A DNA stretch of 64,000 nt from Liolophura sinensis (lineage: Eukaryota; Mollusca; Polyplacophora; Chitonida; Chitonidae): positions 29,108,484 through 29,172,483 of the forward strand of contig NC_088307.1 in assembly GCF_032854445.1 (NCBI RefSeq), given 5' to 3'. Every line of letters begins with the position of its first letter. Within the stretch, counting starts at the first letter, position 1. Positions 37,701 through 43,700 of this stretch are shown one piece after another. Made by a program: the position numbers and the translations under genes. The notes under the pieces were generated by a model, which was not told the DNA's origin, did not search any database, and saw only the letters and a program-made list of their open reading frames with translations.

Positions 37701-40700
37701 CTACCAACTGTGCTACTGGGGCGGTAACTTCTGAAATAGGATACGATCCTGTTTGACTGTGCCCCTAAATTCAGCAGTTTGCACAGAATGAATTTCTGAT
37801 GAACAATTGTTATGTCATAAATATCCATTGAACATAATCAATGAATAAACAAATGGCTGATTGAATGAGAGGGACAATGAAAGCAATGCAAACCTTTCTT
37901 TGATAATTTCCAGTAACCTCTCAGCATATTTCTTCACTCCAAATATAACACCTAGGGAAGAGTTGAATATAACATTGGCCTTTTCTCTCTTTCCTTCCTG
38001 TCGAAAGAAAATAAAGATTAAATATTTTGTTTCTTTTACAGATTTCAGTCATTAGATGTGAACCTATTTCATAGGTACACACGTACTTGTACCTACCTTG
38101 ATCCTTGTCATACTAAAACAGCATTCAAATGGCCTTAATTATAACCTGAGCATTTAACATTTGTGGCCTTTACAATTATCATCATCCACTTTAATTTATA
38201 TTATTTTCTTTATTCCCACAATACCCACAGCTAGATGGAAACTGCCAAATGGCATAAAAGTCATAATCGTTCATTCATTTTTATCCACACTATTCACTGT
38301 AAATCATTCAATCAGACATAACAATGATCAGACCTTCCTAAAGAAATGCTCAGCCAGGTACATGATTTTCTGGGGGGCACCTGCACATTTGATCGGTGTA
38401 TTAGGGAAGGTGAAGATCGCATTTCCCTCCCTGGAATGCCTGAAGTGCTGGGAACGTTTTCTCCACGGTGTCACACGAGTAGTTAGAACACAGTCTCTTA
38501 TCCACATCAAATGCTTCAGGAAGCCCCTTGATCTACAGTGAAATCAATGTCAAATGAATTATTTAGGATTTCAAAGAATGAAATATTAATTTATCCAGAA
38601 AGATATGGATAATGGAAATAAGTAACCAGTCATATTAACTGCAAATTGTGTCATTATTTCTGCAAAACAGAAGCTGCCAGAATGTTCCACATGAGATTGT
38701 TCATTCCCACATGAGATTGTGCATTCCCACATGAGATTGTTCATTCCCACATGAAATTGTTCATTCCGGGTTTAACACTACCATCAATATTACTCTGATC
38801 ACATTGCCACAGAGTCTCAGTGCTTCCAGCAGGTCGATTATAAAGCTGACCCTCCTTAACTAGTGCTGTCTCAATGACATGCCATGCTGAACACACCAAG
38901 CCCTGATACAGTATCCATGTACTGACATCAAGCCTACTAGCATTTAGCTTATGCTCAGCTGCAAGCAAGACAGCTAGTACTAAGAATGCTGACCTTCATG
39001 TATCAATAGTGGAGGTGCCTCACTGACATGTCATGCTGAGGACACCAGACATGGTGCTAAGTCTAGACACAGAGTATACTGACAATGGACTGACCAATGT
39101 TCAGTGTAAAGCTCTCATGCTAAGCCGCTAGTAAGGTAGTACTAGTAAAGAGCACTGATTGAATGATTGATTAAGGTAGTACTGGTAAAGAGCACTGACT
39201 GAATGATTGATTTATTGAATGTTTATGCCACACTCAAGAATTTCTCTGCCTTTACATACTAACACTTTACACACTCAAGCAATTTACACACTCAAGCAAT
39301 TTACACACTCAAGCAATTTACACACTAGCAGTGCCCGGGATTAAACTACCGACCTCCAGCAACTTAGTGACAAACTTTCCAACATTTGACACTGACCTGC
39401 ACACCACACTTGTGGAAGACAAGTGGTCTTCATTGAACATACATGTAAGACTGTGCAAATTACACTTAGGAGTGCCATCAACCATATATTGTCACAAAGG
39501 TCCAATAAAGACTGAGAAAAGCGGGACTGGGTTCTGAGTCAGCTTTCATATTATTTATTTATTTATTTGATGGGTGTTTCACGAAAACGGCCAGCATTAC
39601 TATGTATTATGGGAGGAAACCCCGCAGAGAAACCCATGGCCACCCATGGGTAAATTATATCATGCAGTTTAGTACATAGATATAATGAGGAGACATTTAC
39701 AGTTACCTGAGCTGTACCAGAACAGGTGTCTGGCAATAAACCAGAACAATAGCTCCATTAGAATAACTTACCCAGTGATAATTGAGCTGTATTCCCATGG
39801 CAACCACCAGATAATCATAACCGATCTGGAAAATAAATTATGTTCAAAATTTAAAATAATTGATACTTTTATCACATACATATTCTTTCAAAATTTTTGT
39901 TATATTTGCAAATATCATTAAAAATATGTTCCTTGGGTGTAACCTGAGCGAGCCTTCAAAAATATTTTTTGGGGATTTTGATCCCAGTAACTAGTTTATA
40001 AAACTGTGTTATCTGTTATCAAACTTAAGTCGAATTTTCTACCACTCACCTCTCTTCCACAAGTCAGATTTACTCAAACCACCACCCACCTCTCTTCCAC
40101 AAGTCCTGTTTTCATGCAAAACCATCCACCTCTCATCCACAAGTCCAATTTTCATGCAAAACCATCCACCTCTCTTCCCCAAGCCACACCCTCAAGCACC
40201 ACCCCTCACATTTCTTCCCTAAGTCATACCCTCAAGCACCACCACTCACTTCTCTTCCCCAAGTCATGCTCTCAAGCACCACCACTCACTTCTCTTCCCC
40301 ACGTCACACTCTCAAGCACCACCACTCACCTCTCTTCCCCATGTCACACTCTCAAGCACCAAGACTCACTTCTCTTCCCCAAGCCACACCCTCAAGCACC
40401 ACCACTCACCTCTCTTCCCCAAGTCACACTCTCAAGCACCACCACTCACTTCTCTTCCCCAAGCCACACCCTCAAGCACCACCACTCACTTCTCTTCCCC
40501 AAGCCACACTATCAAGCACCACCACCCACTTCTCTTCCCCAAGCCACACCCTTAAGCACCACCACTCACTTCTCTTCCACATGTCACATTCTCAAGCACC
40601 ACCACTCACCTCTCTTCCCCATGTCACACCCTCAAGCACACCATTCACCTCTCTTCCCCAAGCCACACCCTCAAGCACCACCACTCACCTCTCTTCCCCA

Positions 40701-43700
40701 AGTCACACTCTCAAGCACCACCATTCACCTCTCTTCCCCATGTCACATTCTCAAGCACCATCACTCACCTCTCTTCCCCACTCACCTCTCTTCCCCATGT
40801 CACATTCTCAAGTACCACCACTCACATCTCTTCCCCATGTCACACCCTCAAGCACCACCATTCACCTCTCTTCCCCAAGCCACACTCTCAGGCACCACCA
40901 TTCACCTCTCTTCCCCATGTCACACCCTCAAGCACCACCATCCACCTGTCTTCCCCATGCCACACCCTCAAGCACCACCACTCACCTCTCTTCCCCATGT
41001 CACACCCTCAAGCACCACCATTCACCTCTCTTCCCCAAGCCACACTCTCAGGCACCACCATTCACCTCTCTTCCCCAAGCCACACTCTCAGGCACCACCA
41101 TTCACCTCTCTTCCCCATGTCACACCCTCAAGCACCACCACTCACCTCTCTTCCCCATGCCACACCCTCAAGCACCACCATCCACCTGTCTTCCCCATGC
41201 CACACCCTCAAGCACCATCACTCACCTCTCTTCCCCACTCACCTCTCTTCCCCATGTCACATTCTCAAGCACCACCACTCACCTCTCTTCCCCATGTCAC
41301 ACCCTCAAGCACCACCATTCATCTCTCTTCCCCAAGCCACACTCTCAGGCACCACCATTCACCTCTCTTCCCCATGTCACACCCTCAAGAACCACCATCC
41401 ACCTGTCTTCCACATGCCACACCCTCAAACACCACCACTCACCTCTCTTCCCCATGTCACACCCTCAAGCTCCACCATCCACCTCTCTTCCCCATGACAC
41501 ACTCTCAAACACCAACACTCACCTCTCTTCCCCATGTCACATTCTCAAGCACTACCACTCACCTCTCTTCCCCATGTCACACCCTCAAGCACCACCATTC
41601 ACCTCTCTTCCCCAAGCCACACCCTCAAGCACCCCCACTCACCTCTCTTCCCCATGTCACACTCTCAAGCACCACCACTCACCTCTCTTCCCCATGTCAC
41701 ACTCTCAAGCACCACCACTCACCTCTCTTCCCCATGTCACACTCTCAAGCACCACCACTCACTTCTCTTCCCCAAGACACACCCTCAAGCACCACCACTC
41801 ACCTCTCTTCCCCATGTCACACCCTCAAGCACCACCACTCACCTCTCTTCCCCAAGCCACACCCTCAAGCACCACCACTCACTTCTCTTCCCCATGTCAC
41901 ATTCTCAAGCACTACCACTCACCTCTCTTCCCCATGTCACACCCTCAAGCACCACCATTCACCTCTCTTCCCCAAGCCACACCCTCAAGCACCACCACTC
42001 ACCTCTCTTCCCCATGTCACACTCTCAAGCACCACCACTCACCTCTCTTCCCCATGTCACACTCTCAAGCACCACCACTCACTTCTCTTCCCCAAGACAC
42101 ACCCTCAAGCACCACCACTCACCTCTCTTCCCCATGTCACACCCTCAAGCACCACCACTCACCTCTCTTCCCCATGTCACACTCTCAAGCACCACCATTC
42201 ACTTCTCTTCCCCAAGACACACCCTCAAGCACCACCACTCACCTCTCTTCCCCATGTCACACCCTCAAGCACAACCACTCACCTCTCTTCCCCAAGTCAC
42301 ACTCTCAAGCACCACTACTCACTTCTCTTCCCCAAGACACACCCTCAAGCACCACCACTCACCTCTCTTCCCCATGCCACACTCTCAAGCACAACCACTC
42401 ACCTCTCTTCCCCATGTCACATTCTCAAGCACCACCACTCACCTCTGTTCCCCATGTCACATCCTCAAGCACCACCACTCACCTCTCTTCCCCATGTCAC
42501 ACCCTCAAGCACCACCACTCACCTCTCTTCCCCATGTCACACCCTCAAGCACAACCACTCACCTCTCTTCCCCAAGTCACACTCTCAAGCACCACTACTC
42601 ACTTCTCTTCCCCAAGACACACCCTCAAGCACCACCACTCACCTCTCTTCCCCATGCCACACCCTCAAGCACCACCACTCACCTCTCTTCCCCATGCCAC
42701 ACTCTCAAGCACAACCACTCACCTCTCTTCCCCATGTCACATTCTCAAGCACCACCACTCACCTCTCTTCCCCATGTCACACCCTCAAGCACCACCACTC
42801 ACCTCTCTTCCCCATGCCACACTCTCAAGCACAACCACTCACCTCTCTTCCCCAAGCCACACCCTTAAGCACCACCACTCACTTCTCTTCCCCATGTCAC
42901 ATTCTCAAGCACCACCACTCACCTTTCTTCCCCATGTCACGCCCTCAAGCACCACAATTCACTTCTCTTCCCCAAGCCACAACCTCAAGCACCACCACTC
43001 ACCTCTCTTCCCAATGTCACATTCTCAAGCACCACCACTCACCTCTCTTCCCCAAGTCACACTCTGAAGCACCACCAATCACTTCTCTTCCCCAAGCCAC
43101 ACCCTCAAGCACCACCACTCACCTCTCTTCCCCACTCACCTCTCTTCCCCATGTCACATTCTCAAGCACACCACTCACCTCTCTTCCCCATGTCACATTC
43201 TCAAGCACCACCACTCACCTCTCTTCGCCATAGCACCGCCATCCACCTGTCTTCCCCAAGCCACACCCTCAAACACCACCACTCACCTCTCTTCCCCCTG
43301 TCACACCCTCAAGCTCCACCATCCACCTCTCTTCCCCATGTCACACCCTCAAGCACCACCATTCACCTCTCTTCCCTAAGCCACACCCTCAAGCACCACC
43401 ACTCACCTCTCTTCCCCATGTCACACTCTCAAGCACCACCACTCACCTCTCTTCCCCATGTCACACCCTCAAGCACTACCACTCACCTCTCTCAAGCACC
43501 ACCCCTCACCTCTCTTCCCCGTGTCACACTCTCAAGCACCACCACTCACCTCTCTTCCCCATGTCACACTCTCAAGCACCACCACTCACCTCTCTTCCGC
43601 TGCCTGTGGTCACAATGTTCATCTTGGGGTTAAACTTGACAACTTTCTCTCGTATCCACTGGCAGTTTCCAGGGAGCACGGACTCCATGGAACGTGCGGA

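Follow-up and report, generated by a model that had tools for sequence, protein, structure and literature searches.

Intron 2 of the SQOR gene of the chiton Liolophura sinensis is taken up almost entirely by a tandem array in which its 5′ splice site is repeated. We analysed this intron within a 64,000-nt stretch of the genome (C13:29108484-29172483, in the following the window), for which an earlier, sequence-only reading had described an intron made of about 85 copies of its own donor. The intron lies exactly where that reading had placed it, and we count 92 donor-like sites, the authentic one included. The array is most likely a minisatellite of the 'mirage' type, in which a segment spanning the exon–intron junction was amplified in place, without any special relation to splicing, and the gene is probably spliced normally. 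A second array at the last intron of the same gene and arrays at exon boundaries of other genes provide the evidence for how it arose.

All genome-wide counts refer to one assembled haplotype of 609,464,459 bp in 632 contigs. The assembly was first published as Liolophura japonica and is described there as made from PacBio HiFi reads at 14x (PMC11068029); it was renamed L. sinensis by correction (PMC12441733). Because of the 14x coverage, array copy numbers are approximate.

Two arrays spanning splice junctions of SQOR

We identified the gene, which lies on the minus strand, by comparison with human SQOR: translated exons 1–3 match the human protein (PDB 6oi5/6mp5) with E 4e-33, the exon 2/3 join aligns without a gap, and exons 9–10 match the human C-terminus, again ungapped (E 2e-16). 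Locating the junction strings yields ten exons and nine introns, all of them GT-AG (Table 1); joins covering both exons were made for introns 2 and 9 only.

Tandem Repeats Finder (TRF) reports a period of 40 bp with 86.4 copies between positions 40041 and 43492, and another row reaching 43598. The array comprises 3549 of the 3764 bases of intron 2 (94%), in agreement with the earlier description of a nearly filled intron. Donor-phased cores, matched fuzzily (n = 89), are spaced by exactly 40 bp in 81 of 88 cases, and three 57-bp steps (40 + 17) each contain an extra donor, giving the total of 92 donor-like sites. GT is kept at 91 of these sites. The 9-mer of the true donor, GAG/GTGAGT, occurs at 51 of the 92, that is, at 50 of the 91 downstream copies (decoys), so the ladder of near-identical donors that had been proposed is indeed present. 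Among the 84 units of forty bases, the deviations from consensus include position −1, which is not G in 18, and position +5, which differs in 21. Unit identity to the exon copy shows no clear trend with distance (Spearman −0.18, p 0.08). Two statements of the sequence-only reading need correction: (i) the unit does not begin exactly at the donor, since the repeat starts 9 nt inside exon 2 (GGAAGAGAG), and (ii) it is too strong to say that every boundary reads GGGAAGAGAG/GTGAGTGGTG, as the exact 20-mer across the boundary occurs 32 times, the 9-mer is limited to the sites counted above and one site lacks GT. Reading on past the exon 2 donor gives V-S-G-G-A-stop, as had been predicted; the stop falls within the first unit, so that every decoy would include it.

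The 32 exact copies of this 20-mer are the only ones in the genome, and all of them lie in SQOR intron 2, with none for the reversed control (exact matches only); the array is therefore of local origin. We further searched 6 kb around each SQOR splice site for its junction 20-mer, allowing up to 4 substitutions. The exon 2 junction is found in 91 copies and the exon 9 donor in 29, compared to a single copy for each of the seven remaining donors and of the nine acceptors. This excludes chance as the source of the intron 2 array. A dispersed satellite or introner-like element, with one unit present at many loci, was considered and rejected, given the confinement of the exact 20-mers to this one intron.

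The excess at exon 9 reflects a second array, in intron 9, with a 65-bp unit and 27 of 28 spacings of exactly 65 bp, so that two of the nine SQOR donors lie inside arrays. GT is kept in 28 of 28 decoys, 22 of which have the 9-mer CAAGTAAGT in common, and use of a decoy would add one codon followed by a stop. The exon part of the unit encodes residues that align ungapped to human SQOR (E 2e-16). Because the unit thus contains conserved coding sequence, this array was made from the exon. Together with the confinement of the 20-mer, the sister array with its 37 nt of conserved exon bears out the proposal that the intron 2 array derives from its junction by local tandem duplication. In intron 9, unit identity to the exon copy drops with distance (Spearman −0.72; neighbouring units are not independent), which fits an array growing, or being homogenised, from the exon end.

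Table 1. Features of the SQOR locus, in positions of the window
Feature	Position	Strand	Description
SQOR exon 10, coding part	31657..31717	-	matches human SQOR C-terminus
SQOR intron 9 (last intron)	31718..33982	-	2265 bp, 83% array
Second junction-spanning array	32108..34020	-	65-bp unit made of 37 nt exon 9 and 28 nt intron (from GTAAGTTATCTCACC); 29 donor copies; coordinates from TRF
SQOR exon 9	33983..34163	-	C-terminal residues of the exon conserved with human
SQOR exon 3	39772..39825	-	acceptor TTTTCCAG/ATCGG
SQOR intron 2	39826..43589	-	3764 bp, GT-AG, phase 0
Distal, most diverged units of the intron 2 array	40041..40180	-	sites 86-89 (40169-40049); unit bodies clearly different
40-bp junction-spanning array	40041..43598	-	92 donor-like sites, counting the authentic one; first copy includes 9 nt from the exon 2 end
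Authentic 5′ splice site GAG/GTGAGT	43584..43592	-	junction between 43590 and 43589
SQOR exon 2	43590..43760	-	171 nt; end GGAAGAGAG = G-R-E; ungapped PDB SQOR match, junction strings

Four one-base frame breaks were noted in SQOR, each beside a short homopolymer run: in exon 4 (~38430), exon 6 (~37000) and exon 9 (~34145 and ~34100). They could be assembly errors or could mark a decaying gene copy. No second SQOR locus was found with a 146-aa SQOR query, as all four genome matches (E up to 0.001) fall inside the present gene. The anatomy of boundary arrays in many other exons is independent of whether this SQOR copy is alive.

The window is rich in arrays overall, with 112 TRF rows, many of them overlapping. 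A 38-bp array of about 68 copies extends from 49169 to 51751; some of its minus-strand units hold a donor-like AAGCAGGTGACG, and it is adjoined by an open reading frame (ORF, 51741-52007) with no Pfam match. Other large tandem arrays, with different units, lie at 25057-26524, 34507-35066, 11795-12613 and 57326-58206; the array at 34507-35066 is inside SQOR intron 8, with about 220 bp between its start and the donor.

Boundary arrays in other chiton exons

We determined how often exon boundaries fall inside arrays in a sample picked regardless of repeats, consisting of the best 60 of 81 exon matches to the myosin head (PF00063) with 400 nt of flank per side. TRF returned six donor-side and five acceptor-side candidates. 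Exon sequence is part of the unit in three donor arrays, L104 (66 bp), L145 (140 bp) and L130 (124 bp), and in two acceptor arrays, L116 (95 bp) and L119 (32 bp); the other candidates start or end roughly 9–50 nt from the exon and were left out of the count. A boundary inside an array was thus found for 5 of the 60 exons of this one gene family (exact 95% interval 3–18%), and SQOR intron 2 does not stand alone. On the two sides, 3774 and 3697 of 24000 flanking bases (15–16%) belong to arrays, a share above that of junctions inside arrays. Random seeding therefore suffices to explain arrays at junctions, and no special mechanism is needed. With three donors and two acceptors, this sample does not support the donor-over-acceptor asymmetry at which the motif scans described below had hinted, and we dropped it together with the accompanying idea of 'first made, first served'.

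One of the myosin arrays is of an unusual composition: the 124-bp units of L130 (G000:C3:25740487-25741481; donor-type, 4.3 copies) each contain about 115 nt of exon and 9 nt of intron. Such a ladder of spare exon ends is possible raw material for new introns.

We also scanned the genome for donor and acceptor motifs in tandem. Three AGGTRAGT in tandem match 1790 times, compared with 929 for the reversed pattern. The permuted motif AGTGRAGT gives 627 matches and, when reversed, 1206; this last pattern itself holds a donor-like GAGGTGA. A hotspot at donors is not claimed from the 1790 matches, as junction seeding alone could explain the excess over the controls, given that 15–16% of exon flanks in the myosin sample belongs to arrays. 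Clusters were inspected in the first 7 Mb of C1, among the matches listed, and classified by eye; there are 18 clusters of the donor motif compared to 6 of the reversed pattern. The 5′ edges of 17 of the 18 were viewed as sequence, and that of L056, which is preceded by another array, was judged from TRF rows and the ORF list. Six clusters begin at a coding-exon donor and have the exon end inside the unit, and two more (L023 and L046) are possible arrays of this kind. As a control, ten edges were viewed at five clusters of the reversed pattern. Flank was present at eight of them, none of which overlaps an exon end by eye, and two arrays start about 160–190 bp inside an intron.

Donor arrays carrying the exon end were found at an ankyrin repeat exon (Pfam 3.8e-9), a Fe-hydrogenase-like exon (Pfam 1.5e-12), an OGDH exon with ..GMPHR/ inside the unit (PDB 6e-21), a BTAF1/Mot1 SNF2 exon with ..YYCDLSPLQ/ inside the unit (PDB 1.8e-18), and an exon of a core-2 branching enzyme (Pfam 2e-6, with a match that ends 13 residues before the exon does; nothing in PDB at 0.001). 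A further exon we take to be BTAF1 HEAT, its only HEAT match lying below the cut-off. Two more donor arrays turned up by accident among clusters of the acceptor motif, one at a glutamate-receptor-like exon (L055; PDB 6e-12, residues 3–55 of 70) and one at a coiled-coil-looking exon without assigned protein (L053). In total, the pattern scans yield eight exons beyond SQOR with donor arrays that carry exon sequence in the unit. The acceptor motif TTTTNCAG matches 1405 times genome-wide, against 783 for its reverse. Among the matches listed it forms 33 clusters, of which 28 were inspected: one is an array reaching an exon acceptor (L071), two are the opposite-strand donor arrays L053 and L055, one is ambiguous (L086), and 24 showed nothing by eye. 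The pattern is insensitive, matching neither of the two myosin acceptor arrays.

In a rhodopsin-type receptor gene (7tm_1, 2e-17; L064/L065, G000:C1:5873700-5877300), we noted a 47-bp array in the intron after ..AFERF. It begins about 160 bp into the intron, and its unit holds a donor-like CTCAAGTAAACT.

Origin of the arrays and choice among splice sites

The most plausible sequence of events is as follows. A segment of about 40 bp that chanced to straddle the SQOR exon 2/intron 2 boundary would have been duplicated in place and amplified through slippage or unequal exchange, as seems to happen widely in introns of the present chiton genome, the place of seeding being the only link to splicing. 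The original exon and its first donor would stay put while the boundary repeat grew into the intron. Exon 2 would be recognised as a unit, the donor nearest the exon body would win, and the 91 downstream copies would be ignored or their products destroyed, leaving SQOR splicing probably normal. The direction from exon to array is supported by the units of SQOR intron 9, OGDH and the BTAF1 SNF2 exon, because these hold conserved coding sequence, and also by the arrays whose units carry the ends of the Fe-hydrogenase-like and ankyrin repeat exons.

Several observations weigh against this account. The intron 2 unit shares just 9 nt with the exon, and the residues G-R-E encoded there are not conserved in human SQOR; for intron 2, the direction is therefore judged from the other arrays and from a protein length that has not changed. 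Among the 18 clusters of the donor motif, ten either lie away from any exon or are unclear cases. Finally, variation in the intron 2 unit is lower in the exon-like part (0.78 variants per position at −9 to −1) and in the donor core (0.83 at +1 to +6) than in the rest (1.44), which could hint at constraint. In the intron 9 unit the exon part is the more variable (0.51 vs 0.32 variants per position for the rest), and over seven arrays the divergence of the donor core relative to the rest of the intronic unit is lower in five and higher in two. Selection on the decoys was rejected, there being no consistent purging or protection over these seven arrays; that donor positions are neither consistently purged nor kept fits neutrality. 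Most likely the array is neutral and results from tandem duplication running rampant in this genome; it would be tolerated because splicing picks the exon-proximal copy.

If the decoys were instead working alternative donors, they would give stop-bearing transcripts subject to nonsense-mediated mRNA decay or, where the frame permits, longer proteins, and the array would tune SQOR output. The retention of GT and of the authentic 9-mer in so many decoys of both introns would suit such a role, as would the open reading through the 33-bp BTAF1-like array (64 codons) and the branching-enzyme array (66 codons), and splicing from downstream repeat units has been reported for human IFI6 (PMC4526556). 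We nevertheless consider it unlikely, since SQOR decoys run into a stop after five codons in intron 2 and after one in intron 9, arrays are found in many genes unrelated to each other and selection on the donor leaves no consistent trace in them, and in amphioxus the mirages of Adh and troponin C reportedly give no aberrant mRNAs (PMC3902484).

The reverse order of events, in which an intronic satellite that contained a cryptic donor extended to, or took over, the end of the exon so that exon 2 now ends in satellite, would account for the short, unconserved exon share in intron 2. It is very improbable given the ungapped alignment to human SQOR at the exon 2 junction, the absence of the 20-mer core elsewhere in the genome, and the conserved coding nature of the shared exon part wherever this can be judged, namely in SQOR intron 9, OGDH and the BTAF1 SNF2 exon (in the branching-enzyme and BTAF1 HEAT-like exons the matches end short of the exon end). 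We give least credence to a beneficial ladder in which unspliced decoys bind the U1 small nuclear ribonucleoprotein and block premature polyadenylation or boost transcription. Predicted pairing to U1 equals or exceeds that of the true donor in 48 of 90 GT decoys; yet acceptor-spanning arrays are about as frequent as donor-spanning ones in the myosin sample, many arrays do not lie at junctions at all, and donor positions in the decoys are not consistently conserved.

In-place amplification of the junction leaves the question of how the authentic site is selected. We scored the units for donor strength, as the sequence-only reading had suggested, and with a position weight matrix of human frequencies 51 of 90 GT decoys score at least as high as the true donor. 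Since so many decoys match it, local donor sequence alone cannot single out the true site. The models put forward by the sequence-only reading, in which splicing depends on position or on exon definition, are plausible. The conserved protein runs ungapped across the exon-proximal junctions of introns 2 and 9, which argues that the exon-proximal copy is the working one. Such a copy would be the first of many donors and the last of many acceptors; we infer that exon definition predicts the use of both, whereas first-come commitment predicts the donor case only. More tentatively, and with the balance of our judgement somewhat against it, a sizeable share of chiton exons may have their splice sites multiplied on both sides, with the spliceosome taking the exon-proximal copy each time and the lineage having to tolerate thousands of near-perfect decoys. 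If so, choice must rest on exon definition or another long-range cue, because the decoys repeat the local sequence, with 9 to ~115 nt of exon plus intron.

Related systems and implications

The sequence-only reading knew of no described satellite with this architecture. Precedents are, however, on record. Amphioxus 'mirages' are described as minisatellite-like tandem repeats across exon–intron boundaries, both 5′ and 3′, with units of 10–72 bp in Adh3 and ~155 bp in globins (BflGb6 having 3 or 6 units of 150–160 bp); the genes reported are Adh3 and the globins BflGb6/BflGb9 (PMC3087553), to which troponin C and PGBD5 were added (PMC3902484). Reverse-transcription PCR is reported to have suggested regular splicing, and the repeats to be unstable (PMC3087553). 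A minisatellite providing multiple splice donors in human IFI6 (6-16) is attributed to Turri, Cuin and Porter 1995, as cited in PMC4526556; PMC2572611, PMC3618361 and PMC2915984 also list this work among their references.

Amphioxus and chiton arrays have in common that repeats span boundaries, that units carry splice signals and that both the 5′ and the 3′ sides are hit. In SQOR, the boundary is spanned with 9 nt of exon at intron 2 and 37 nt at intron 9, and the units contain AG/GT. The chiton arrays are the same kind of structure as amphioxus mirages, longer, in a mollusc and with evidence of wide genomic abundance. They differ in host phylum, in reaching up to 92 donor copies and in the many genes seen in a genome-wide look. 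With IFI6 they share a tandem repeat that offers several donors at an exon–intron boundary; in that gene, splicing from the repeat donors is reported, whereas in SQOR intron 2 the frame closes after five codons. Intron gain has also been described where segments that carry splice signals are duplicated in tandem (PMC2812944, PMC4974935). The chiton case likewise duplicates splice signals in tandem, but it grows an existing intron and makes no new one. Among the matches listed in the open-licence literature, we found no boundary arrays in chitons or other molluscs.

Splice-site choice between identical neighbours is usually studied with few engineered duplicates. The chiton genome offers natural ladders, with up to 92 near-identical donors and with acceptor ladders, in ordinary genes, and thereby a test of choice among identical splice sites. 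On these ladders, existing long-read RNA methods can distinguish exon definition from first-come commitment and from rules of distance. The arrays also show intron growth through amplification of the junction itself outside chordates.

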